A stretch of DNA of 32,114 bases, taken from a virus. A program made the position numbers and the translations under genes. The notes below the pieces were generated by a model. The model saw nothing but the letters and a program-made list of their open reading frames with translations, ran no database searches and was not told the origin of the DNA. The stretch is taken from IMG/VR virus record IMGVR_UViG_3300023179_000331, positions 1-32,114 of that record. One strand, given 5' to 3'. Shown piece after piece: positions 3,328 through 32,114 of the stretch (positions are counted from its first letter, which is position 1; every line of letters begins with the position of its first letter).

Positions 3328-3666
3328 CTACGCCATATTGGAATTAAGATTGCCGAGAAGCGCACTATTATTAGGAGCGGTAAGGGACGATTTTGCAGGT
3401 CCAAAAATGTCATCAAAACCAAAACCTTTACCGCCGCCAGCCTTATAGCCCGCAACGCCTTGTTGCAGCGCATTTCCAAAGCCAGCCGCTGCCGTAGGCA
3501 TGGCGTGAATGCCTTTATAAGCAGTCGTTTCCAAACCATTATCGCCCTGCGCTTGAAGCAAAGCGGCCAATTTCATAACCTTAGCTTGGTCTTCCGGCGT
3601 GGATGGGGCGGTCAGGGATGTCTTAATGCTTTCCCACCAAGGCTTTTCGCCCGTTTCATCAGCCAT
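3328..3666 (-). CDS. Small virion-type protein, paralogous to the N-terminus of the 438-aa protein
   Basis: The product has 112 residues and starts MADETGEKPWWESIKTSL. Its central block (KVMKLAALLQAQG, then TAYKGIHAMPTAAAGFGNAL and VAGYKAGGGK) aligns by eye with the N-terminal block of the neighbouring 438-residue protein: KLAxxLxxQG, YKGI, A-P, AGxGxAL and GxYxGG. It therefore looks like a stand-alone copy of the head module of that protein. The start lies eight bases inside the end of the PAPS-reductase-family gene, so the two are probably translationally coupled. It is probably a minor structural or ejection-complex component; no function is known. Confidence 0.6.
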   Translation of the reverse strand: MADETGEKPWWESIKTSLTAPSTPEDQAKVMKLAALLQAQGDNGLETTAYKGIHAMPTAAAGFGNALQQGVAGYKAGGGKGFGFDDIFGPAKSSLTAPNNSALLGNLNSNMA

Positions 3667-4354
3667 TGAAAGCCTCCAATATCTTCATGGATGGAGCCAA
3701 AGCCGTCTGCAAATCGGCCATTTTGGCTGCGTATTTAGCATAGAATTCAGGATATTTCTGCTTTGTCCACTCAATTCGGTCAGCCGAATGGCCCAAATAA
3801 GCGGTGCAGTCGTAGCAATCTAGGCTGGTGTGTTTGATGCCGTAATGGTCCGGCAGGGCGGCCCGGTGCTGGAGGATGAACGCGAAGACCTGTTCCTCCG
3901 TCCATGTTTCGATGGGCTGGACAAAGGTAATGCCATCGACAATTGAGCCGTCCACAGCAGTAGACTTATGGGCTTCGTCTAGCCTCTGGCCGCGCACCAG
4001 GCTGGTGATCCCACGGTCTTTAGCCGCCTTGAGCAGCGGAACAGCTATATTCTCATGGCAGCAGCTAAAATATGTCTGAATTTTGACCGGCTTAGGACTA
4101 GTCATGGTCATGCCAAACACCGTCCAATCGACGGGAACGACATCAGACGGGATGCCTGTACGCTCAATCTGGGCTTGCTGGTCAGACGGTATTTCAATGA
4201 ATTCCTTGGCTTCTGCCCTTATTTCGTTAACTATTGCAATGGTTTCTGGGTAAGCCTTGCCGGTATTGACCCACAGGACAACAGGCTGCTGCTCGCGGTA
4301 CATATACCAGCAAGCCAGCGAGTCCTTACCGCCTGAGAAAGCCAATCCTAGCAT
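3659..4354 (-). CDS. PAPS-reductase-family (PP-loop ATPase superfamily) protein
   Basis: The start, MLGLAFSGGKDSLACWYMY, carries the SGGKDS PP-loop (residues 7-12) that binds ATP or adenylyl groups in PAPS reductases, ATP sulfurylase CysD, DndC and related enzymes. NTGKAYPET follows as in CysH-like proteins, then a CC pair (TYFSCCHEN, about residue 98) and a C-x2-C motif (DCYDCTAY) near the C-terminus. These cysteines could hold a metal or Fe-S cluster or act in thiol chemistry. At 231 residues it is close to the usual CysH length. It sits between structural genes, overlapping the upstream stop by one base (TGATG). The substrate is unknown: sulfate assimilation, tRNA or nucleobase thiolation and a virion-related role are all possible. 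Confidence 0.82.
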   Translation of the reverse strand: MLGLAFSGGKDSLACWYMYREQQPVVLWVNTGKAYPETIAIVNEIRAEAKEFIEIPSDQQAQIERTGIPSDVVPVDWTVFGMTMTSPKPVKIQTYFSCCHENIAVPLLKAAKDRGITSLVRGQRLDEAHKSTAVDGSIVDGITFVQPIETWTEEQVFAFILQHRAALPDHYGIKHTSLDCYDCTAYLGHSADRIEWTKQKYPEFYAKYAAKMADLQTALAPSMKILEAFNG

Positions 4355-10118: not shown

Positions 10119-11465
10119 TTATTTAGGGTTTTGAACGTACAACGTGGCATACGGACAGGCATCGCCATGATCTGTATGCTGGTACTTGATGTCATATTCA
10201 GAGAATTTGCTCTGCCACCATTCGCTAGGAAACACGGATAGATGAAGCGGGTGACCGATCAGCTTTCCCATACTATCGTCAAATAGGGCTATTTTGAAAT
10301 AGCAACTATCGACGCAATCCATGATATTTCTAATAACGTCAGGCACATCCTCCGGGGGGATATGCTCCATAACGTCCGTGCAGTAGCCAATATTGCCGCT
10401 GATGCCGATTGGCTTGGTCAGGTCGGCTACGGTAAAAGGCAGGTCATTGCCTTCGTCGCGGCAATTGTCAGCAAAATCAACGAGTTGCACTTCACAGCGG
10501 GTCAATTCGGCAATCTTCTTGCCACCCCGGCCCGTGCCGCAACCGAAGTCCACAATGACATCGGTTAGCTTGGGATCGGCAATCTGGACAAAATGCTCCG
10601 CAAATGACTCGCCGGGGGCAACTTCCCGGTACAGCGGGGTCTTCCACATAGCTTCGTATTTCTGGACTTCCGACATGGGCGGCGGCGGCTCAGACATGGC
10701 CTTGGCAATAGCCGGGAGGAGGCCGTGCCCGTGGACCTGAATGATCGTGTCTTCTTCAGCAAGCTGCTGGGCGGCGGTCTGAAATTCCATAGCCTGCCGG
10801 GCCATCCAGGGGGCGGCAATATACTCCTTGCCGCTGACCCAGTAGCCTTCGCGGGGGTCTTCGGCGTTGGCCGTTTGGGCGTAGGCGTGGCCTTCGCCAG
10901 CCAAGGAATAGCTGGAATCAAAACCGTACAGGTGGATATGCCGGTAGCCCATGCAGAAGGCGATGCTCATGGCCTGAAGGCCCACAGTTGTCCCGCCGCC
11001 AATCAGGGCGCATAAACGGTCCCCGATATAGTCTTGAATGCCGGGATAAGCCGGGTGCCATAAAGTAACGTCATGGCCTTCCAGAGCCTCAAAGACGCCC
11101 GTGGAACACTGGGACGCAATGAGGTACTTGGTAGCCTTATTGGGGTGAACAAAGCCCTGATTGTGCGCCCTGGCGTCCAGAAGCACGAAATAGTCAGGGG
11201 TTACGTCAACGCTGGCTAGGGACGGAATAGTGCCATTTACGGCAAAAATAGCCTGACCAGCGCCTTTATGGGCGGCAATCATGGGGAGCAGCGGCTTCAT
11301 AGAAGGGCCGCCCCCCACAATCACAGCTACCCCGTCATGTGGCTCAGAAAGCTGCAACCACGGAAGATCACGAGCAACGGCAGCAGTTATGTTGCCGAAA
11401 ATCTCGTGATCCTCCGTGTTGCACACGATAGGAATCGTATCATCTAGGTTAGATGGTACGATCAT
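10119..11465 (-). CDS. DUF115 (MptE/Maf-like) domain fused to a SAM-dependent methyltransferase
   Basis: The N-terminal ~260 residues look like the DUF115 fold. They show VIVGGGPSM (about 48-56), FAVNGTIPSL, DYFVLLDAR (about 91-99), LIGGGTTVGLQAMSIAF and HLYGFDSSYS (about 178-187). This family includes archaeal 6-hydroxymethylpterin pyrophosphokinase and bacterial Maf flagellin-glycosylation factors. After a Pro-rich linker (SEPPPPMSEVQ) the C-terminal part is a class I methyltransferase with VIVDFGCGTGRGGKKI (motif I, about 303-318) and YCTDVMEHIPPEDV. It sits among capsid and tail genes and overlaps the decoration gene stop by one base (TAATG). It may modify a virion or surface glycan; the substrate is unknown. 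Confidence 0.75.
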   Translation of the reverse strand: MIVPSNLDDTIPIVCNTEDHEIFGNITAAVARDLPWLQLSEPHDGVAVIVGGGPSMKPLLPMIAAHKGAGQAIFAVNGTIPSLASVDVTPDYFVLLDARAHNQGFVHPNKATKYLIASQCSTGVFEALEGHDVTLWHPAYPGIQDYIGDRLCALIGGGTTVGLQAMSIAFCMGYRHIHLYGFDSSYSLAGEGHAYAQTANAEDPREGYWVSGKEYIAAPWMARQAMEFQTAAQQLAEEDTIIQVHGHGLLPAIAKAMSEPPPPMSEVQKYEAMWKTPLYREVAPGESFAEHFVQIADPKLTDVIVDFGCGTGRGGKKIAELTRCEVQLVDFADNCRDEGNDLPFTVADLTKPIGISGNIGYCTDVMEHIPPEDVPDVIRNIMDCVDSCYFKIALFDDSMGKLIGHPLHLSVFPSEWWQSKFSEYDIKYQHTDHGDACPYATLYVQNPK

Positions 11466-18830: not shown

Positions 18831-19146
18831 TGAAGATGCCGACAGCCATGACTTCTACGCCAGCGCCAGTCGTGATCTTCCACGCGCCGTTGGCCGACAC
18901 GGCATTGAATTCAATGTTGTACACGCCGGGGATTACAGACGCGCTGGCCGGAAGGACAGTATGCGTGAGAATGCCCGTACCCGTGCCATCGACAATCACA
19001 ACATTGCCAGTCGCGCCAGTCGTGACCGTGCAAATCAAACGATGCAGGTAGTCGCCTACTGCGCCAGTCGTGCCAAGAACCTGCGCGGACTGGGATGCCG
19101 CCACATGCTCATAAAAATACCGATATGGGTTGTTTACGCCGCTCAT
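18823..19146 (-). CDS. Conserved phage protein downstream of terminase, 107 aa
   Basis: The product starts MSGVNNPYRYFYEHVAAS. It continues with beta-rich, Thr/Gly/Val segments (DYLHRLICTVTTGATGNVVI, then IPGVYNIEFNAVSANGAWKI) and ends in a hydrophobic VMAVGIFSA. It resembles a small beta-sandwich virion protein. The ATG overlaps the terminase large-subunit stop as ATGA. No function is known; a decoration or head-vertex role is possible. Confidence 0.6.
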   Translation of the reverse strand: MSGVNNPYRYFYEHVAASQSAQVLGTTGAVGDYLHRLICTVTTGATGNVVIVDGTGTGILTHTVLPASASVIPGVYNIEFNAVSANGAWKITTGAGVEVMAVGIFSA

Positions 19147-20480
19147 AGTCTAGCCCTTCTCTTTGTCTTCTGTGATGCCCACATATCATTCAATGTGGCC
19201 GTATTGGTCCTGCCCACAATTAGCGGGCGCTCGCTCGCCATGACCTTCGGGAGCGCTTCGCCCCGCCAAGCAACAGCCAGCATTCTAAATGCATCTGCCG
19301 GATGGCTGCACCAATTGTGTTTGGGAGCCGATCGGAACGCCTTCTTGTCTTCATCGTACTCGCGTTCATACTGGCGCAATGCCTCAATGCCTTCAGCGCA
19401 TTTGCGTTCGTCGAAATAGCACTTGGGCAGCGTCATACGCACAGCCTGAATGCCGTCTTGTACGCCCAGGTCAGGCACAACATTGATATTTGCTAGACCA
19501 AGGTGTTCAGCCAGTTGCTCAATGATTGACTTACCTTGAGCTGCCAGAGTCTTAGCTCGCGCATCATGCGGCAAGTAATGCTTGCCGTAATGGTAAGGCT
19601 TATTGACAACAACTTCAGCAATATCAGAAATACTAGCGCCGGAAACAGCGTAATAATCGATAACATGGATTTCATTGCGGGCCACCTGATACCACCAGAT
19701 TGCTGTGTCATCACGAAAGCCCAAGTCCCAAGCCGTGTAAGTTGGCAAGCTGGGATCATAGGCAACTTCTCTAATGCGGCCCTGATCCTGAGCCTCGCGC
19801 ATCTCGACACCATAGAACGCGCCTAGAATTGCAGCTTCAAAGCTGCATTCATATTCCTGCATGTACTGGTCGGGCGTGATCTGCGCCTTGACGGCTTCAA
19901 GTTCGTACCGGGGCAACAGACCGCTATCCGTAGCCGTCAGCCTGAGAAGAAACCAATCTTTAGGGTTTTTCTTGGCGTCTGAGTAAATGTCCCAGAATTG
20001 GTTCTTTCCTTTGGGCGTACCAGCAAAAACCGCCCAGCCCTGCTTGTCAGACAGCGTGGGACGAATGACATGGCCCCATACAGAAGGCCGAAAATCGCCA
20101 TATTCGTCCATAAAGATGCCGTCAAAGCCAAGACCACGCATGGCATCAGCGTTATCAGCGCCAAAGAGCCGAATACGTCCGCCAGTGACCAAATCAATTT
20201 GCAATTCGGCTTCATTGGACGCCTTGGTGATCGGTGCGCTAAACCGCTTGAGATAATCCCAAGCTACAGACTTAGCCTGACTGCGGAACGGCGCTATGTA
20301 CGCAAACTGCGGGCTGACCGACTTACAAGTGATCGCCGCCCGTATGATGTCGTTAATGGCTGCCACAGTCTTGCCCGCCCGGCGGTGCGCCACAAGGCAA
20401 GCCCACCGCTGGGTGCGGTCATGGAAGGGCATGAACGCAGAACGCGGTTCGTAGCCAATGCTGATTTCCTTAACCGCCAT
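19143..20480 (-). CDS. terL: Terminase large subunit
   Basis: This 445-residue packaging motor has an N-terminal ATPase and a C-terminal nuclease. It shows Walker A HRRAGKT (residues 32-38), Walker B GIFMDEY (about 121-127) and motif III AGTPKGKN (about 153-160). The RNase H-like nuclease starts at TAWDLGFRDDTAIW (catalytic Asp about 252), with HYLPHDARAKT and SHPADAFRMLAVAWR further on. The length is typical of podophage large terminases. The gene starts six bases after the small-subunit gene. It would cut and pump DNA into the prohead through the portal encoded downstream. Confidence 0.95.
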   Translation of the reverse strand: MAVKEISIGYEPRSAFMPFHDRTQRWACLVAHRRAGKTVAAINDIIRAAITCKSVSPQFAYIAPFRSQAKSVAWDYLKRFSAPITKASNEAELQIDLVTGGRIRLFGADNADAMRGLGFDGIFMDEYGDFRPSVWGHVIRPTLSDKQGWAVFAGTPKGKNQFWDIYSDAKKNPKDWFLLRLTATDSGLLPRYELEAVKAQITPDQYMQEYECSFEAAILGAFYGVEMREAQDQGRIREVAYDPSLPTYTAWDLGFRDDTAIWWYQVARNEIHVIDYYAVSGASISDIAEVVVNKPYHYGKHYLPHDARAKTLAAQGKSIIEQLAEHLGLANINVVPDLGVQDGIQAVRMTLPKCYFDERKCAEGIEALRQYEREYDEDKKAFRSAPKHNWCSHPADAFRMLAVAWRGEALPKVMASERPLIVGRTNTATLNDMWASQKTKRRARL

Positions 20481-20486
20481 CCGATT

Positions 20487-20789
20487 TTACTTTTTAGCGT
20501 CAAGCCACTTCACAACCAGTTCAACCGGGCCTTCGTCCTTGCCCGTCATCTCATGGCGGGCCAGCTTTGGCACATGGTACTCAATAAGGTCCGAGAAGCA
20601 CTTGATCGCAGCCAGAGGGCCGTCGCGGTCATGGACTTCATCCAGCCACTCCTGGAGCCTGTCAGCGTTACCATCAACAAAACGGGCAATCGCCTCACGG
20701 GCGTTCTGGGTCGATTTGTTCTTAACGCCCTTGCGACGGCCAGGGTTGCCTTTTTTGAACTGAGCGTGTTTGGGAGGAGGCGCGGCCAT
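20487..20789 (-). CDS. terS: Terminase small subunit
   Basis: This 100-residue basic protein begins MAAPPPKHAQFKKGNPGRRK, then GVKNKSTQNAREAIARF. The F-x-KGNPG-R-KG-x-NK pattern (DUF5681-like) is common in small terminases. A helix (DRLQEWLDEVHDRDGPLAAI) and a C-terminal EGPVELVVKWLD follow, the latter resembling the large-terminase contact region. It sits immediately ahead of the large subunit and overlaps the upstream mini-gene by one base (TAATG). The role is to recognise phage DNA and regulate the large subunit. The family call depends partly on position. Confidence 0.83.
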   Translation of the reverse strand: MAAPPPKHAQFKKGNPGRRKGVKNKSTQNAREAIARFVDGNADRLQEWLDEVHDRDGPLAAIKCFSDLIEYHVPKLARHEMTGKDEGPVELVVKWLDAKK

Positions 20790-20959
20790 TAGATGTCGTC
20801 CCTTTTCATGGTTTTCATAGCGCGGGCCAGCTTTGGACCTTTGTCCGCCTGGTTGAACTCTTTGGCGACTTTGACCGGAATGCCAGCTTTCTTGGCAATT
20901 TTCGGGTCATGTGCCGCCGCAGCCATGAATCGACGCTGTTTGTTCGATGTCGAAGGCAT
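20789..20959 (-). CDS. Small basic phage protein (KQRRFMAAAAHDP type), 56 aa
   Basis: The product begins MPSTSNKQRRFMAAAAHDP, continues IAKKAGIPVKVAKEFNQADK and ends MKRDDI. This is a very widespread phage mini-protein (S-x-KQ-x-RFM, HDP, AKEF-x-ADKG), often beside terminase or head genes. It is the first gene of the morphogenesis operon, about 30 bases downstream of the -10 element of the promoter. Its stop shares a base with the terminase small-subunit start (TAATG). The function is unknown; it may bind nucleic acid. Confidence 0.8.
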   Translation of the reverse strand: MPSTSNKQRRFMAAAAHDPKIAKKAGIPVKVAKEFNQADKGPKLARAMKTMKRDDI

Positions 20960-20989
20960 ATCGCACCAGATTTAGGTGAATCCAGCAAG

Positions 20990-21018
20990 AAAATACGCTT
21001 GATGCAGATTACAGTCAA
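20990..21018 (-). promoter_or_regulatory. Sigma70-type promoter for the morphogenesis operon
   Basis: Read on the minus strand: TTGACT (21018-21013), a 17-base spacer, then TATTTT (20995-20990). Five of six -35 bases and four to five of six -10 bases match the consensus, at ideal spacing. Transcription would begin near 20983, some 24 bases ahead of the first ATG. A GAATC site at 20978-20982 lies just past the expected start. Confidence 0.65.
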
Positions 21019-22437: not shown

Positions 22438-22686
22438 ATGACCTGGTATTTCGTCTGCCTGCCAGACGGTCAAGTTTGCAATCGTTTCAATAACTTACAC
22501 GATCTGACGGACTTTATTCGCGATTACGACGTCACGGGGGCTGACTTTTACCGCGCTGAAGACGGCAAATGGACCCAGATCAACGGGCTGGTCGATGACT
22601 GCTTGGAGGAGGCTAGGCTAGAGGCTCACTACGATGACAATCATTTTGAGTGGGTTAGTTCGCCAGAGAAGATTGGTCGAACATGA
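22438..22686 (+). CDS. Acidic early-type protein, 82 aa
   Basis: The product starts MTWYFVCLPDGQVCNRFNNL and is rich in Asp and Glu (for example NGLVDDCLEEARLEAHYDDN). It looks like a small alpha/beta fold of unknown family. It lies one base after the membrane peptide stop and overlaps the next gene as ATGA. The strong acidity suggests either a DNA mimic or a protein-binding factor; this is only a suggestion. Confidence 0.6.
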   Translation: MTWYFVCLPDGQVCNRFNNLHDLTDFIRDYDVTGADFYRAEDGKWTQINGLVDDCLEEARLEAHYDDNHFEWVSSPEKIGRT

Positions 22687-23294
22687 CCGATTATCGCGTC
22701 ACCGTGACGGTAAAAAACGCCCGTATCTTGCGGGCAATGGAAAAGGCCGGGTTTGATAGTGTGGCAGCTTTGGCTAGGGCTATGGACATCAGTACCACTA
22801 CTTTGCACACGTTGCTGTCTCTGAGGCGCTCGCCTCTTTCACGCGGGCGCGGACCGAAAGGCAACGACAGCAATAGGCCATTGCGTTGGATTCCTACAGT
22901 TGAAAAGCTGTCTTTGATACTCAAAGTACCCGTTGAGGAGCTATTCAGCCCGGCACAGCGCAACCCGTCTGGGTCTTTGAATCGTAAGAGCATTGACGTA
23001 TCGGAAACAGATGTGCGGGCTTACATTGCAAGTGCGTCATACACTGCTCCCGCGCTTGAAGACGGATTAATCAAAAAAGACACGCTTAGAAAAATTATCA
23101 TTGAGGCAAAGTTAGACGCCCGCGAAGATGAAATTATTGCGGGTACGTTTTTTGAAGATAAATACGCCCCAGATTTTGCGGAAAAGTTTGGCATTTCAAG
23201 AACTCGGTCTGACCAAATAAGAAATAGGGCGCTGCGGAAGCTGAAGGCTGCGGCTGATAGGCTAAATGTTGGCAGCGCGGGGTTGTTCATATGA
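22683..23294 (+). CDS. XRE-like HTH fused to sigma70 region-4-like domain (regulator)
   Basis: Residues about 10-85 read like an XRE/Cro-type DNA-binding domain: ILRAMEKAGFDSVAALARAM, DISTTTLHTLLSLRRSPLS and VEKLSLILKVPVEELFSP. Residues about 145-195 resemble sigma70 region 4: AREDEIIAGTFFEDKYAPDF, then AEKFGISRTRSDQIRNRALR and KLKA. The second matches the F-G-I-S-R-x-R-x-x-Q-I-x-x-x-A-L-R-K-L pattern that recognises -35 elements. At 203 residues the regions 2 and 3 of a real sigma factor are absent, so it is more likely a transcription regulator than a full sigma. It is coupled by ATGA to both neighbours. It could bind one of the operator-like elements upstream. Confidence 0.78.
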   Translation: MTDYRVTVTVKNARILRAMEKAGFDSVAALARAMDISTTTLHTLLSLRRSPLSRGRGPKGNDSNRPLRWIPTVEKLSLILKVPVEELFSPAQRNPSGSLNRKSIDVSETDVRAYIASASYTAPALEDGLIKKDTLRKIIIEAKLDAREDEIIAGTFFEDKYAPDFAEKFGISRTRSDQIRNRALRKLKAAADRLNVGSAGLFI

Positions 23295-26313: not shown

Positions 26314-27042
26314 ATGGCGTTTGACTTGAAATCTATTCGTAAGAATGAGGCTATCTCTAGCCCGCGTATCCTGTGCTATGGGGTTCCAGGGATTGGGAAA
26401 TCCACGTTTGGTGCATCTGCACCCAACCCCATATTTATCTGCACGGAAGACGGCCTTGGCTCGCTGAAAGTCGATAGCTTTCCGCTGGCCCAAACGTCAG
26501 ATGATGTACTGGCAGCCATTGCTTCGCTGTATTCCAGTAAACATGAGTTCAGAACTGTGGTCATTGATTCGGTAGACTGGCTTGAGGCCATGATTGCCAA
26601 GGAAATTGAGACTAAGTATGACGCCAAGGACTTGGCCTATGGCCGTGCTGCCGTGTACGCCGTTGGACGTATGCGGGAGATACTGGACGGCCTGAACGCC
26701 CTGCGTAACGACAAGGGCATGATCGTCATTCTGATTGCCCACTGCCAGATACGCCGCTTTGATAGCCCAGAAGTTGAACCATACGACAGATACATGCCCA
26801 AGTTGCAGGACAAGGCTAACGCTGTTGTCCGCGAGTGGGCTGATGCCGTGCTGTTCTGCAACTATAAAACCGTTGTGAAGAAAGACGATGTTGGGTTCAA
26901 TCAGACCAACAATCGCGGCATCAGCACTGGCGAGCGTCTGCTGTTCACCAGTGAGAAGCCCGCATACATGGCTAAGAACCGCTATTCCATGCCTGAATCC
27001 ATCCCGCTGTCTTGGGATGACTTTGCCGCTGCAATTAATTAA
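26314..27042 (+). CDS. Sak4-like RecA-fold ATPase (AAA_24), phage recombinase
   Basis: The product shows RILCYGVPGIGKSTFGASAP with Walker A GVPGIGKST (23-31), Walker B RTVVIDSVDWLE (about 79-90), DKGMIVILIAHCQIRRFDSP (motif near sensor 1) and PKLQDKANAVVREWADAVLF. These features belong to phage nucleotide-binding proteins related to Sak4, a minimal RecA/Rad51-type single-strand annealing recombinase. At 242 residues the length is typical. A consensus AGGAGG lies seven bases before the ATG, implying strong expression. It is followed by a DUF669 putative ssDNA-binding gene and a Cas4-like nuclease, the usual partners of Sak4. Confidence 0.85.
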   Translation: MAFDLKSIRKNEAISSPRILCYGVPGIGKSTFGASAPNPIFICTEDGLGSLKVDSFPLAQTSDDVLAAIASLYSSKHEFRTVVIDSVDWLEAMIAKEIETKYDAKDLAYGRAAVYAVGRMREILDGLNALRNDKGMIVILIAHCQIRRFDSPEVEPYDRYMPKLQDKANAVVREWADAVLFCNYKTVVKKDDVGFNQTNNRGISTGERLLFTSEKPAYMAKNRYSMPESIPLSWDDFAAAIN

Positions 27043-27059
27043 CCGAGGAGAACTGCACT

Positions 27060-27527
27060 ATGCCTATCATCGACTTTGACGCTGTTGAACTCACTGAATT
27101 TGCACCGCGTACTTTTGAAGCCCTACCGCGCGGCGACTACACTGCCATGATTACCGATAGCGTACTGAAGGACACTAAGTCTGGCCTGGGCCAGTACATC
27201 GCGCTGACGATCGAGATTATCGACGGTTCGTATTCTGGCCGCAAGATTTGGGACAACCTTAACGTCAAGAACCCTAATCCTACCGCTGAGAACATCGCTA
27301 AAGCTGGCCTTACCCGCTATTTCCAATCGTGCGGTCAGGACTTGGAGAAGGGCGCTGACACCACTGCGCTGTACAACATCCCGTTTAAGCTGACGCTGGG
27401 CATTGATCGCAATGATGCAACCCGCAACACCGTGACTGGTTCTGGCCCGCTTGGCTCTGCCAAGAAGCCCAAGCCCACAGTTGACCGCGAGGCTGTTGCC
27501 TCTGGCAAGAAGCCCTGGGAGCGGTGA
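27060..27527 (+). CDS. DUF669 family protein, probable ssDNA-binding partner
   Basis: The product reads EALPRGDYTAMITDSVLKDT, then LGQYIALTIEIIDGSYSGRK and IWDNLNVKNPNPTAENIAKA. This is the DUF669 pattern (P-x-G-x-Y, K-x-x-x-G, G-R-x-(IV)-W-x-x-x-(NV)). DUF669 proteins are OB-fold-like and usually sit beside phage recombinases, acting probably as ssDNA-binding proteins. The end is basic and Pro-rich (KKPWER). A GAGGAGA precedes the ATG by eight bases, and the gene lies 17 bases after the Sak4-like gene. Confidence 0.82.
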   Translation: MPIIDFDAVELTEFAPRTFEALPRGDYTAMITDSVLKDTKSGLGQYIALTIEIIDGSYSGRKIWDNLNVKNPNPTAENIAKAGLTRYFQSCGQDLEKGADTTALYNIPFKLTLGIDRNDATRNTVTGSGPLGSAKKPKPTVDREAVASGKKPWER

Positions 27528-27534
27528 TTTTGTA

Positions 27535-27963
27535 ATGGCAATCAACGCCAAAGAAATCAGTCAGTTTAAAAAACTGATGATGATGACAACATCAGACAAT
27601 GATCCTGAAGCGTTGATTGCTATTCGCAAGGCAAATACCATTTTAAAAAACAATAAAGTAAATTGGGACGAACTTTTCAAACAAGTTAATTTCAATAGTT
27701 TAAGCGTTAAGAATACTCATGGTTTTAGAGATAGTTATAAAAGTTACAGTCCTAAATATCCATCTGAGCCTAAGACATCATCAAACAGGACCACTAGCTC
27801 GGACATATTAAAACCCTTGCAATTTGCAATGGACCGCTGCGAAGGCAGTTTTTATGATTTTTTAGAGAGTTTAAAATATCAATTTCAAAACAAGGGTTGG
27901 TTGTCCGAAGCCCAGGTTGCGGCAATCATGAAAAGCGCAGTGCGTAGTGGCTGGCGCGGTTAA
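27535..27963 (+). CDS. DUF2786-like protein, 142 aa, AT-rich gene
   Basis: The N-terminal ~50 residues (KEISQFKKLMMMTTSDNDPE, then ALIAIRKANTILKNNKVNWD) fit the DUF2786-like pattern in which a helix with DP-x-E-A-x-x-A precedes a second helix. The middle is Ser/Lys/Tyr-rich and probably disordered. The end (AMDRCEGSFYDFLESLKYQF, then WLSEAQVAAIMKSAVRSGWR) is helical. The gene is visibly richer in A and T than its neighbours, which suggests separate acquisition. It sits between the DUF669 and nuclease genes. The ATG is seven bases after the previous stop. Confidence 0.65.
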   Translation: MAINAKEISQFKKLMMMTTSDNDPEALIAIRKANTILKNNKVNWDELFKQVNFNSLSVKNTHGFRDSYKSYSPKYPSEPKTSSNRTTSSDILKPLQFAMDRCEGSFYDFLESLKYQFQNKGWLSEAQVAAIMKSAVRSGWRG

Positions 27964-27976
27964 AAAAGGGTAAAAA

Positions 27977-29002
27977 ATGACAATTATACCGGAGCCGATT
28001 AACACAACAGCAAGTAAAATTTACGATTGGTATGAATCCAAGCGTGAAGGACACCGCGAACACTTGGGCGCGTCCTTGATTGGGCATGAGTGTGATCGGT
28101 TTCTGTGGCTGACGTTTCGCTGGGCTGCGTCCCCCGTTTTCGGGGGGCGCGTCTTGCGTCTATTTGGAACTGGTAAGCGGGAGGAGCAGCGTGTTTACGA
28201 AGAGTTACAGGCCATTGGGGTTGAACTACACACCGAGCAAGACGGCAAGCAAATCGAGTGCCGTGACCGTCGTGGTCATTTCGGTGGTAGTGTTGACGGC
28301 ATTGGCCGGGGCTTTCCTGAAGGCCCGGAGACTTGGGCTGTTCTAGAGATCAAGACGGCCAACTTCTCAGCGTCCAAGAAGCTAAAGGACGCTGGCGTTG
28401 AGAAGGCCAAGCCACAGCATTACGCCCAAATGATGATCTATATGGGTATGCTAAAGCTGGACCGGGCGCTTTACCTGAACGTCAACAAGAACACGGACGA
28501 CATCTACACCGAATGGGTGCCATTTGATGAAGGCACATTTAACGACCTTATGCGCCGCGCTGACCGTATCATTGGCGCAACTGAGCCTGGTCCCAAGGTT
28601 GCCGATAGCGCGTCAAAGATGCCCTGTAAGTTTTGCGACTTTGCGCCGTTCTGCCATGACACGCAGCCCGCTGAGTTTAACTGCCGTACCTGTTGCCACT
28701 CTACGCCCAGGGACGGCGGTAAATGGCAATGCCATGAGCATGACAAGGAGTTGTCGGTTGAAGACCAGCGCAAGGGCTGTGATAGCCACCTGTTCATCCC
28801 GGCCTTGGTACACGGAACAGCTATTGATGCTGATGTGGGATTCGTCGAGTATTTTGTTGAAAGCACGGGCGAGACATTTAAGAACGGCCCCGCCCACACG
28901 CCCAGCAAGGAAGTTGTCAAGCGCGGGCGCAAGAAGAAGGCCGTTGTTGATCTAGGCCCAGAGATTTCATTGGATGATTTAAATGACGACATACCCTTTT
29001 AG
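27977..29002 (+). CDS. Cas4-like PD-(D/E)XK nuclease with Fe-S cysteines
   Basis: The catalytic core shows GHFGGSVDGIG (Asp107), AVLEIKTANF (Glu124 and Lys126) and KPQHYAQMMIYMGML (Gln147, Tyr149). This is the RecB/Cas4-type PD-(D/E)XK arrangement. One cysteine near the start (SLIGHECDRFLW, Cys39) and three after the core (MPCKFCDFAPFC, Cys217, 220 and 226) match the 4Fe-4S pattern of Cas4/AddB nucleases. A further cysteine cluster (NCRTCCHS, WQCHEHD, KGCDSHLF) forms an extra zinc-like module. It probably resects DNA ends for the Sak4-like recombinase. It lies 13 bases after the DUF2786-like gene. No cas1 or cas2 is nearby, so a CRISPR role is unlikely. Confidence 0.85.
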   Translation: MTIIPEPINTTASKIYDWYESKREGHREHLGASLIGHECDRFLWLTFRWAASPVFGGRVLRLFGTGKREEQRVYEELQAIGVELHTEQDGKQIECRDRRGHFGGSVDGIGRGFPEGPETWAVLEIKTANFSASKKLKDAGVEKAKPQHYAQMMIYMGMLKLDRALYLNVNKNTDDIYTEWVPFDEGTFNDLMRRADRIIGATEPGPKVADSASKMPCKFCDFAPFCHDTQPAEFNCRTCCHSTPRDGGKWQCHEHDKELSVEDQRKGCDSHLFIPALVHGTAIDADVGFVEYFVESTGETFKNGPAHTPSKEVVKRGRKKKAVVDLGPEISLDDLNDDIPF

Positions 29003-29506: not shown

Positions 29507-29784
29507 TGGACATGATCGAGCAAGTAGAGCGAGCCGTTTACGCATCGCTTAAGGTCGAAGGGTTTTCGCATCAGGATTTTGATTTGTTGAATACATTTCA
29601 AAAAACGCAGGTCAATAAAATGGCCCGCGCCGCCATTGCCGCCATGCGTAACTGCACCCCGGCAATGCTAGACGCCGGATCCGCCGCACACCCGGCTGGT
29701 GGTTACGTTCGCGGTACACTTTTGACGGATATTATAGAGGCTGAGTGGGTGGCGATGTGTGACGCGGCGTTGGGGGAGAAATGA
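29506..29784 (+). CDS. Conserved small protein, 92 aa (paralogue B)
   Basis: The product starts MDMIEQVERAVYASLKVEGF and contains RAAIAAMRNCTPAMLDAGSA and WVAMCDAALGEK. It is a tandem paralogue of the preceding gene: MI-x-x-V-x-x-A, ARAAIAAMR, AM-x-x-AG and W-x-x-M-x-DAAL are shared. The ATG lies at the stop of the first copy and its own stop overlaps the RuvC-like start as ATGA. Function unknown. Confidence 0.6.
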   Translation: MDMIEQVERAVYASLKVEGFSHQDFDLLNTFQKTQVNKMARAAIAAMRNCTPAMLDAGSAAHPAGGYVRGTLLTDIIEAEWVAMCDAALGEK

Positions 29785-30260
29785 TTATTTTAGGCATAGA
29801 CCCCGGCCTGTCGGGCGCGTTGGCGTTCCTTGACACCAAGACAGGCATGATCGCGGTGGAGGATATGCCAGTCGTGACCGTCATGCGAAACCGCAAGGAA
29901 AAGCGGGAAGTCAGCGCCCAGTTGGTCGCGGCTATAGTGGTTAAACGGCATGTCGAGGCGGCCTTTCTAGAGAAGGTCAACGCAATGGCCGGTCAGGGCG
30001 TGTCGTCAGTCTTTAGCTTTGGACGCTCTGCGGGCATTATAGAAGGCGTCCTGGCGGCGTTCGACATCCCAACCACGCTGGTCACGCCACAGGCTTGGCA
30101 GAAGGCTATGGCCGTCAGGGACGGCAAGGACGGCAGCCGGGAGCGGGCTATGCAGCTATTCCCGGCCAGCGCGGAGCTATTCCAGCGAAAGAAGGACGAT
30201 GGTAGAAGCGATGCCGCGTTAATTGCCAAATATGGCGCAACACAAAAGGAAAGCCTATGA
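29781..30260 (+). CDS. RuvC-like Holliday junction resolvase
   Basis: This 159-residue RNase H-fold endonuclease shows the start ILGIDPGLSGALAFLD (Asp7), FLEKVNAMAGQGVSSVFSFG (Glu64) and DDGRSDAALIAKYG (Asp140/Asp144). SFGRSAGIIEGVLAAF lies between, as in bacterial RuvC. The length and acidic residues fit the phage/RuvC group. It would cut branched DNA before packaging or after recombination. Starts and stops overlap both neighbours as ATGA, and it ends the recombination module. Confidence 0.85.
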   Translation: MIILGIDPGLSGALAFLDTKTGMIAVEDMPVVTVMRNRKEKREVSAQLVAAIVVKRHVEAAFLEKVNAMAGQGVSSVFSFGRSAGIIEGVLAAFDIPTTLVTPQAWQKAMAVRDGKDGSRERAMQLFPASAELFQRKKDDGRSDAALIAKYGATQKESL

Positions 30261-30799
30261 ACCGATACCTGCTCACCGCTGCCGTATTGTGCGTTGCAGC
30301 CCCCGCCTATGCTGCGCCCAAGCTGGGCATTTGCCACGGCGAATATGCCCTATGTGCCGCCTCCAGCACGGAGGCCACCGGCCAGACTATGGTTGTCGGC
30401 GGCAAGACCTTCATGCAGGGCCATGCCGTCTGCCCCGTCCTGAAGGGCGAGAGCATTGCCGATCTTCACCTGACCGGCTCCTGTAAGGCCCCGTCAGTCC
30501 CCGGCGGCGTCTGGAGCCTGTTCAGCACGGCCACCAGCTACCCACAGGCCCCAAGCTGGGCTGTGGTCCCGGCTGTTCCCAGGACGTTTACCACTGCCCT
30601 GGGCCGTGGCTTGGGCATGTCCAACATGTGGTCATACCCCTGCGTCAAGCGTCCGCAGCCCGTCAACGGCGCTGTCTTGGCCGACTGCATTGGGCCGATT
30701 AATGAGTCCCCTTGGGACGGCGGCCATGTCCCGCCGGGTTCGTCTAACGTGACCGCTGCCCCTGTTGGCGCGTCTGATCCCGTGGGCGGCAATTACTGA
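30257..30799 (+). CDS. Secreted cysteine-rich protein, 180 aa
   Basis: The N-terminus MNRYLLTAAVLCVAAPAYA is a clear Sec signal peptide with an AYA|AP cleavage site. The mature part has six cysteines (GICHG, ALCAA, AVCPV, GSCKA, YPCVK, ADCIG), enough for three disulfides in the periplasm. It ends in a Pro/Gly-rich, probably disordered tail. It lies between the resolvase and the small 51-residue gene with ATGA and TGATG junctions. No domain is recognised. Exported phage proteins here could act on the envelope, in exclusion or in lysis. Confidence 0.65.
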   Translation: MNRYLLTAAVLCVAAPAYAAPKLGICHGEYALCAASSTEATGQTMVVGGKTFMQGHAVCPVLKGESIADLHLTGSCKAPSVPGGVWSLFSTATSYPQAPSWAVVPAVPRTFTTALGRGLGMSNMWSYPCVKRPQPVNGAVLADCIGPINESPWDGGHVPPGSSNVTAAPVGASDPVGGNY

Positions 30800-30954
30800 T
30801 GAAGTCCATCCGCGTCTCCATCGATTTTGACGTTGAGTATGACGATACCGAGCTGGGGGCTTTTGCCTACGCTATGGCGGTTGTCGATGAATTACTGAGC
30901 CTTGAGATTGATGGGGACGGGGTTAAAGTCGTGCAAACTAGGAGCCATTCGTGA
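30799..30954 (+). CDS. Small acidic protein, 51 aa
   Basis: The product reads MKSIRVSIDFDVEYDDTEL, then GAFAYAMAVVDELLSLEIDG, and ends KVVQTRSHS. It is short, acidic and beta/alpha in pattern. Its ATG overlaps the previous stop as TGATG and its stop overlaps the next GTG start. It is below usual ORF length cut-offs, but coupling on both sides supports it. Function unknown. Confidence 0.6.
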   Translation: MKSIRVSIDFDVEYDDTELGAFAYAMAVVDELLSLEIDGDGVKVVQTRSHS

Positions 30955-31427
30955 TCTGGGGCGAGAAAGACTGCGCCAGGCTGGCCGCTCTGGTAGCCAC
31001 CGGCATCAGCTACACGCTGATTGGCCGGAAAATGCACATCACCAAGAACGCGGCCATTGGCAAAGCGCGGCGTTTAAACTTGCAGAAGTCACCGGCCTCG
31101 TCCACGCCTATCAAATACAAGAAGTCCGTATATACGCCCAAGCCGCCCAAGCCCGCCAAACGCAAGATCATACAGACCAAGGCCATCCCGCCGACGCCGC
31201 CACCTGTGCCTGTCTCAGTACCCGAGATGCGGCTGGTCACGATGATGCAGCTAACAAGCCAGCATTGCCGCTATCCAATTGATACGCCTACAGAAATGCT
31301 ATTTTGTGGCCGCATACCGGACGGCCAGCCGCCCTATTGCAAGGCCCACGCCAAGCTGTGCTATATGCCGCCCCGCGAGCCTAACCGTTCCGAGAGAACT
31401 CTTTCGATTCAAGTTCAACTTCGCTGA
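30951..31427 (+). CDS. GcrA-like cell-cycle regulator (phage-encoded)
   Basis: The 158-residue product has the GcrA layout. The N-terminal HTH begins VIWGEKDCARLAALVATGIS and continues YTLIGRKMHITKNAAIGKAR, matching the W-x-x-x-x-x-x-L, G-x-S-x-x-x-I and RNA-x-IGK-x-x-R-L pattern. A long basic, Pro-rich linker follows. The C-terminal domain is LTSQHCRYPIDTPTEMLFCG, then PPYCKAHAKLCYMP, with Cys106, Cys119, Cys130 and His133. GcrA in alphaproteobacteria binds sigma70 and CcrM-methylated GANTC sites. The start is GTG. The 3' end overlaps the convergent endolysin gene by 47 bases. It probably redirects host or phage transcription. Confidence 0.85.
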   Translation: MIWGEKDCARLAALVATGISYTLIGRKMHITKNAAIGKARRLNLQKSPASSTPIKYKKSVYTPKPPKPAKRKIIQTKAIPPTPPPVPVSVPEMRLVTMMQLTSQHCRYPIDTPTEMLFCGRIPDGQPPYCKAHAKLCYMPPREPNRSERTLSIQVQLR

Positions 31428-31899
31428 CCCGCTTGCCCCAGCCTTTGCCAAATGTCGGCCATGTCGGCAGGGATTTAAGGAAATCCAAGCGGCGCTGGCT
31501 GTAGTCCTCAATAAACTCGACAGGATCGGCCTCTTGTATGGCCGCTAGGGTCTTGGGGCCAAGGCTGCCATCAACCTTCTGGTGCAGGACATACTGAGCC
31601 AGTTTAACTGCCCTGCCGGGGCCGGAATTGACCGCGCAATCGAACAAGCAATAATCCACCCCATGCGGCAGGTCATCCCCGTGGATAGTGTCCCAATAGC
31701 GGACCTTATAGACAGGCTGGACGGCCTCCTGCGTCAAGGCGCGCATATCCGCCTCCGACGCTGACTTGCCCGTGTGGGCGTCCCAGACGGCCTTTGTAAC
31801 GCCGCAGCAAGTCATGCCGCCGGGGTCGCTGGGGTGGTTCACAAAGCCGCCTTCGTGGCGCATCAGGAGCCGCATGGCGAAGTCAAAGGTCGGTTTCAT
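31381..31899 (-). CDS. Endolysin, GH108-type N-acetylmuramidase
   Basis: The product starts MKPTFDFAMRLLMRHEGGF, with the HEGGF-x-NHPSDPGG motif of the glycoside hydrolase 108 family (catalytic Glu in EGG). GVTKAVWDAHTG and YCLFDCAVNSGPGRAV follow, with a C-terminal DGSLGPKTLAAIQEADP segment that looks like a peptidoglycan-binding repeat. At 172 residues the length is typical. No signal peptide is visible, so a holin would be needed for export. The ATG overlaps the stop of the lipoprotein gene as ATGA; an upstream start (MPEGPMKP) is less likely. Confidence 0.87.
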   Translation of the reverse strand: MKPTFDFAMRLLMRHEGGFVNHPSDPGGMTCCGVTKAVWDAHTGKSASEADMRALTQEAVQPVYKVRYWDTIHGDDLPHGVDYCLFDCAVNSGPGRAVKLAQYVLHQKVDGSLGPKTLAAIQEADPVEFIEDYSQRRLDFLKSLPTWPTFGKGWGKRVSEVELESKEFSRNG

Positions 31900-32114
31900 G
31901 GGGCCTTCGGGCAAAGGGTGTGATAGACCGCGTTATGCTCTTTCACGGCGGCAATAGTCTCCAGCGTGTCGTTCAGCCGGGAAAACTGGATAACCTTCGC
32001 AACTGCACAAAACTCAGTCCCGGCTATCGGGGTCTGCGGCCCGCAACACGCTTGGATCAGCGGCAATAGCAGCACGAACAGCGTCCCTAGCCTGATTTGC
32101 CTTCTGTATGTCAT
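31896..32114 (-). CDS. Small Rz1-like lipoprotein (spanin candidate), 72 aa
   Basis: The product has a short basic N-terminus, a hydrophobic stretch and a lipobox (FVLLLPLIQAC), predicting lipidation at the first Cys. The rest (GTEFCAVAKVIQFSRLNDTL, then KEHNAVYHTLCPKAP) matches a small lysis-cassette lipoprotein common in proteobacterial phages, marked by FC-x-x-AK, KEHN and a final LC. It lies directly upstream of the endolysin with ATGA overlap. The ATG falls exactly at the window edge, so a longer N-terminus outside cannot be excluded. Confidence 0.65.
   Translation of the reverse strand: MTYRRQIRLGTLFVLLLPLIQACCGPQTPIAGTEFCAVAKVIQFSRLNDTLETIAAVKEHNAVYHTLCPKAP

Follow-up and report, generated by a model that had tools for sequence, protein, structure and literature searches.

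The window, by which we mean the whole 32,114-base stretch of DNA analysed here, is an IMG/VR record of a viral contig, and no end repeats were found in it. It comes from a podovirus related to Mx8, with a late block on the minus strand that encodes terminase, portal, capsid, tail and amidase. An early operon on the plus strand runs in the order Sak4, SSB, Cas4-exonuclease, RuvC, a conserved hypothetical protein, a 51-codon ORF and, as its last gene, a homologue of gcrA (Table 1). In bacteria, GcrA assists RNA polymerase in starting transcription of genes that carry DNA methylation marks. The endolysin gene is convergent with gcrA, and the 3′ ends of the two genes overlap by 47 bases. Mx8-type podoviruses (Myxococcus phage Mx8, Stenotrophomonas phage BUCT555 and Bradyrhizobium phage ppBjS10J-1) share the portal of the window at 34-38% and its major capsid protein at 52-53%, and their records gave no GcrA match in a tblastn search with the window protein.

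Table 1. Features of the window discussed in the text, numbered from its first base
Feature	Position	Strand	Details
PAPS reductase domain gene	3659-4354	-	in late block; PF01507 E=9.4e-15
MptE-like + methyltransferase-like protein	10119-11465	-	in capsid block; PF01973 E=2.2e-19
Late operon start: 56-codon ORF, small terminase-like ORF, large terminase	19143..20959	-	Terminase_6N/6C
Palindrome CACCTAAATCTGGTG	20961-20980	-	between late promoter and first late gene
Putative late promoter	20961..21018	-	TTGACT-17-TATTTT (21018-20990), GATTC 7 bases after second hexamer, then palindrome
Cro/C1-type HTH joined to sigma70 region-4-like C terminus	22683-23294	+	PF04545 E=6.8e-6
Early/replication operon: Sak4-like annealing protein, SSB (DUF669), Cas4-domain exonuclease	26314..29002	+	ahead of gcrA
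RuvC-like Holliday junction resolvase	29781..30260	+	phrog_1770 E=4.5e-41; same operon as gcrA
Conserved hypothetical, 180 aa	30257..30799	+	upstream of 51-codon ORF; 85-96% identical where present
51-codon ORF (MKSIRVSIDFDVEYDDTE...)	30799..30954	+	conserved; directly upstream of gcrA, GTGA overlap
gcrA homologue	30951-31427	+	GTG start, 158 aa
HTH DNA-binding domain, N-terminal	30951..31085	+	residues 1-45, helices 5-17, 21-28, 32-41; AlphaFold2 and 5yiu_A profile match
Sigma-interacting-type domain, C-terminal	31233..31379	+	residues 95-143; 5yix_B match by sequence and fold
Endolysin (GH108)	31381..31914	-	PF05838 E=2.9e-28; phrog_315

Some other genes of the window differ in how widely they occur. 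The 180-aa hypothetical protein, of unknown function, has a signal-peptide-like start and is missing at the same place in other relatives. The PAPS reductase domain gene is unmatched in the compared relatives, and the MptE-like protein is 79-92% identical in relatives. The latter has the sole methyltransferase-like domain among the ORFs scanned, in which no phage-encoded CcrM was seen.

The coordinates of gcrA proved exact. Its start codon is well supported because the conserved 51-codon ORF overlaps it and because nearly all gcrA copies in relatives have a GTG or ATG at or next to the same place after that ORF. This overlap suggests that the two are co-translated from the early operon. The 51-codon ORF is itself 69-82% identical in relatives, and 94% identical in one truncated copy.

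A Pfam-A search with the 158-aa protein returned one family, PF07750 (GcrA), at E=9.3e-22; the match covers positions 1-152 of the 155 in the profile and scores 78.5 bits, against a curated cut-off of 26.9. Searched against the PDB with phmmer, the window protein matched Caulobacter crescentus GcrA (7ye1_G, E=2.5e-12) and its sigma-interacting domain, or SID (5yix_B, E=1.4e-6). A profile of the phage clade matched 7ye1_G at 2.1e-23, the SID 5yix_B at 4.1e-9 and the DNA-binding domain (DBD) 5yiu_A at 6.3e-8, with GcrA as its sole significant PDB match. The first-pass annotation had called a phage-encoded GcrA homologue, and the full-length family match together with these PDB matches bears it out.

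We built an AlphaFold2 model from eleven phage sequences. In it, a three-helix HTH (pLDDT about 90-94) is joined by a linker of low confidence to a hairpin-helix domain at the C terminus. The overall pTM of 0.32 is low, as expected for two domains joined by a flexible linker. Foldseek against the PDB gave GcrA structures as all of the top three matches, and the C-terminal part matched 5yix_B, the GcrA SID bound to sigma70 domain 2, with prob 1.00 and a TMt of 0.73. No PDB entries other than the C. crescentus GcrA chains (7ye1, 5yix) are convincing relatives, whether judged by sequence or by predicted fold. Like C. crescentus GcrA (PF07750; PDB 5yiu-5yix, 7ye1, 7ye2), the window protein has an N-terminal HTH, a disordered basic linker rich in Pro and Lys, and a SID with a C-C-C-H set. 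It differs in length (158 versus 173 aa), and its gene lies in a phage operon, whereas C. crescentus gcrA lies in a cell-cycle locus.

Fifteen residues are invariant in the eleven-sequence phage alignment (W3, L11, I24, N33, A34, G37, K38, R41, C106, P109, F118, C119, G120, C130 and H133), and the same fifteen also show high conservation across a set of 61 cellular or Caulobacter sequences. They spell out an HTH signature, NA..GK..R, from N33 to R41, and a SID signature, C..P..FCG..YC..H, from C106 to H133. An intact HTH and C-terminal Cys/His set had been claimed for this protein, and both are there: the HTH is predicted, C106, C119, C130 and H133 never vary, and the C-terminal fold matches 5yix_B.

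Of the 37 positions with at least 85% conservation in those 61 sequences, 23 have the conserved residue in the window protein. The cellular set is not a random sample: its members are the best-scoring sequences (30 against Pfam and 30 against the phage alignment), and among them are those sampled cellular proteins that lie closest to the phage GcrAs. Four residues that vary little or not at all among cellular GcrA proteins are replaced across the phage clade (Caulobacter numbering): W15 by A, V, C or T, H41 mostly by R, R48 mostly by S or A, and W120 always by Y. The window protein has V15, R40, S47 and Y108 at these places, and so lacks the residues that mark a cellular orthologue. Because of these replacements, the DNA specificity or sigma affinity of the phage-clade proteins may differ from that of cellular GcrA. 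The phage-specific substitutions also point out candidate residues for exchange with the Caulobacter protein.

We then considered how the gene is distributed among related phages. A RuvC search gave 62 viral loci, and 16 contigs, the window included, show both RuvC and endolysin. In 13 of the 16, gcrA lies between the 51-codon ORF and the endolysin gene as the last gene of the early/replication operon; three of these (L002, L003 and L004) have identical gcrA. The gene is missing from the other three (L121/L035, L122 and L125/G010), and in G010 and L122 the 51-codon ORF is intact and has its own stop where gcrA would begin. Because of these three relatives, gcrA is accessory: preferred but dispensable in this phage group. 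The contrast between related podoviruses with and without gcrA makes the role of a phage GcrA testable. No gcrA was seen in cousins with TerL near 72% identity, many of whose records are fragments.

Between relatives whose RuvC is 87-97% identical, gcrA is 34-77% identical. The idea that gcrA is an exceptionally fast gene was rejected, as SSB (46-51%) and helicase (48-50%) diverge equally in comparisons with most relatives. Pairwise dN/dS between phage gcrA copies is 0.16-0.48, which shows purifying selection on the protein. The eleven distinct syntenic copies group together as a single phage clade (support 99/98), which a long branch separates from all sampled cellular GcrA. For phage GcrAs overall, the tree requires more than one origin, with long branches and unsure deep placement. 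Distant GcrA-like genes also occur at other places in related phage contigs (L090, L030, L034, L080 and L103), which suggests repeated acquisition.

The composition of the window bears on the host. GANTC occurs 47 times, against about 85 expected from trinucleotide composition (ratio 0.55), which is the lowest of the 16 XYNZW palindromes. Loci with TerL at least about 73% identical, with or without visible gcrA, have GANTC ratios of 0.22-0.64 and mostly rank 1 or 2; in the cousins at TerL ~72% the ratios are mostly 0.6-1.1, with middle ranks. Since such depletion is expected of phages that replicate in CcrM-type hosts, it fits group-wide replication in these hosts and not an effect of gcrA itself. 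Upstream of genes, we found 0 GANTC in the window against 1.5 expected, a count in which the crude gene caller hid the late-promoter site. Enrichment upstream of genes was dropped as a candidate, there being none in the window. Across relatives, intergenic GANTC is slightly above an expectation calculated without control for base composition.

An alphaproteobacterial host had been proposed from the gene, and from the sequence comparisons it remains likely: GANTC depletion and the commoner occurrence of capsid relatives in Alphaproteobacteria speak for it, but the closest capsid match, in a Lysobacterales MAG, speaks against it. Strong capsid matches were present in 8 of 385 sampled Alphaproteobacteria genomes, this set being the class of a GcrA-bearing genome and taken to be Alphaproteobacteria, versus 2 of 369 Gammaproteobacteria. 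The closest match in a cellular bin is a phage contig in the Lysobacterales MAG with a 92% identical capsid protein. This contig may be misbinned. No GcrA was found in that MAG, and a TerL search of the genome collection gave only two matches, one of them the same contig. By itself gcrA is no proof of an alphaproteobacterial host, because 127 of the 398 Pseudomonadota sampled gave GcrA-family proteins and the PF07750 model also matches in the Sulfolobus acidocaldarius control.

To examine the late promoter, we compared the upstream regions of 25 homologous loci anchored on the 56-codon ORF. TTGAC lies at about the same place in 23 of them and is followed by GATTC in 9. A promoter scanner matches such hexamers at chance rate, and the evidence here is the conservation, not the match. 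Because the late operon begins at a conserved promoter of sigma70 type, the phage appears to use the host sigma70 polymerase. The palindrome that follows the promoter, perhaps an operator or an RNA hairpin, recurs slightly altered in most of these loci; it has a single copy in the window, so no regulon of an operator family was found. A possible second regulator linked to sigma is also encoded in the window: a protein with a Cro/C1-type HTH and a sigma70 region-4-like C terminus, for which the compared relatives gave no match.

These data lead us to regard the gcrA product as, probably, an accessory GcrA-family cofactor of sigma70 that is adapted to the phage and retargets the host polymerase. 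It would be expressed from the early operon and dock, through its C-terminal domain, on domain 2 of the housekeeping sigma factor of the host. Its N-terminal HTH would keep the holoenzyme at a promoter subset, probably with (methylated) GANTC near the start, and open-complex formation would be speeded at those promoters. Sigma binding, DNA binding and methyl-dependence are attributed to the phage protein by analogy with C. crescentus GcrA, the mechanism of which is summarised in PMC7403470. Among possible targets, the phage late promoter is slightly less likely than host replication and S-phase genes.

The late promoter is nevertheless at the centre of an alternative that we hold to be possible but less credible. 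The first-pass annotation had suggested that the protein could take over host cell-cycle transcription or drive late phage genes; in the second case it would be made early and act upstream of the terminase genes, where GATTC lies at about +2 to +6. The place of gcrA as the last gene of the early operon recalls lambda Q, which sits at the end of an early operon and turns on late genes. GATTC is found at the same place in nine loci despite the genome-wide depletion of GANTC, inside the -40 to +40 zone that defines direct GcrA promoters (PMC7987155). However, these nine sites are homologous and hence not independent, and GGATTCA misfits YGAKTCK, the extended motif put forward for C. crescentus (PMC7987155). 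Three relatives manage without gcrA, and GATTC does not track the gene: it is present in G010 (L025), which lacks gcrA, and absent in G001 (L026), which has it. Given this mismatch, GATTC is probably not a dedicated target of phage GcrA, an idea that survives only as part of this alternative; host GcrA could also use the site. What stands of the earlier suggestion is the GATTC at the start of late transcription, and what tells against it is the poor agreement between site and gene and the loss of gcrA from some relatives.

We think it unlikely that the phage proteins are a clade-specific GcrA subfamily whose altered DNA-recognition and sigma-contact residues would send host sigma70 polymerase to a different promoter set. 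On this reading, the promoters would have other bases around GANTC, or sites that are unmethylated or hemimethylated, and the protein would act as an epigenetic clock that ties the late phage genes to replication of the phage DNA. It is also quite improbable that the protein competes with host GcrA, occupying sigma70 domain 2 or GANTC promoters without activation and so shutting down cell-cycle transcription. Retention of the Cys/His set alongside changes at W15, H41 and R48 of the DBD is what one would expect of a protein that still docks on sigma but uses DNA differently. However, W120, which is in the SID, is changed too, and DNA binding is probably retained, given the well-formed HTH, the strict conservation of N33, A34, G37, K38 and R41, and the purifying selection on the protein. 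That gcrA is a passenger gene (moron), unimportant in infection and recently picked up from a host, is very improbable: it is missing from three relatives, two with the neighbouring ORF intact, but the syntenic copies are one clade on a long branch from sampled cellular GcrA, evolve under purifying selection and are kept in 13 of 16 contigs.

The preferred reading, a phage-adapted sigma70 cofactor, concerns a family already known from phages. In the literature we found, phage GcrA is mostly an annotation in scattered phages. Gp222 of phiCbK and its homologues in other Dolichocephalovirinae are likewise phage-encoded PF07750 proteins, proposed to alter the host replication state, with the idea of a raised host replication capacity (PMC3556154). 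Their carriers differ in being giant Caulobacter siphophages, and in the tree they are on another branch (PH_L223); GcrA of this type was not detected at E 0.01 when the window protein served as tblastn query. GcrA also occurs in other phages of Alphaproteobacteria, namely Agrobacterium phage Atu_ph08 (PMC6630229), brucellaphage Y17 (PMC11836647) and Rhizobium phage RHph_X2_24. In the tblastn search with the window protein none of the three came out as a near relative, and that of RHph_X2_24 is very distant in the tree. Further published cases are phiLM21-like prophages (PMC12429752) and a coral-associated phage (PMC11309003), and one study of Alphaproteobacteria phages saw no positional asymmetry of GcrA sites in their genomes (PMC9437464). 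Next to these, the window copy is a strongly diverged, well-preserved and lineage-conserved GcrA in a separate phage clade. What is new is that gcrA has one fixed place in a phage group, coupled to the 51-codon ORF and convergent with the endolysin gene. GcrA homologues are also annotated in phages labelled Synechococcus (PP438432.1, OM868079.1); these host labels may be wrong, or the gene may cross phyla.
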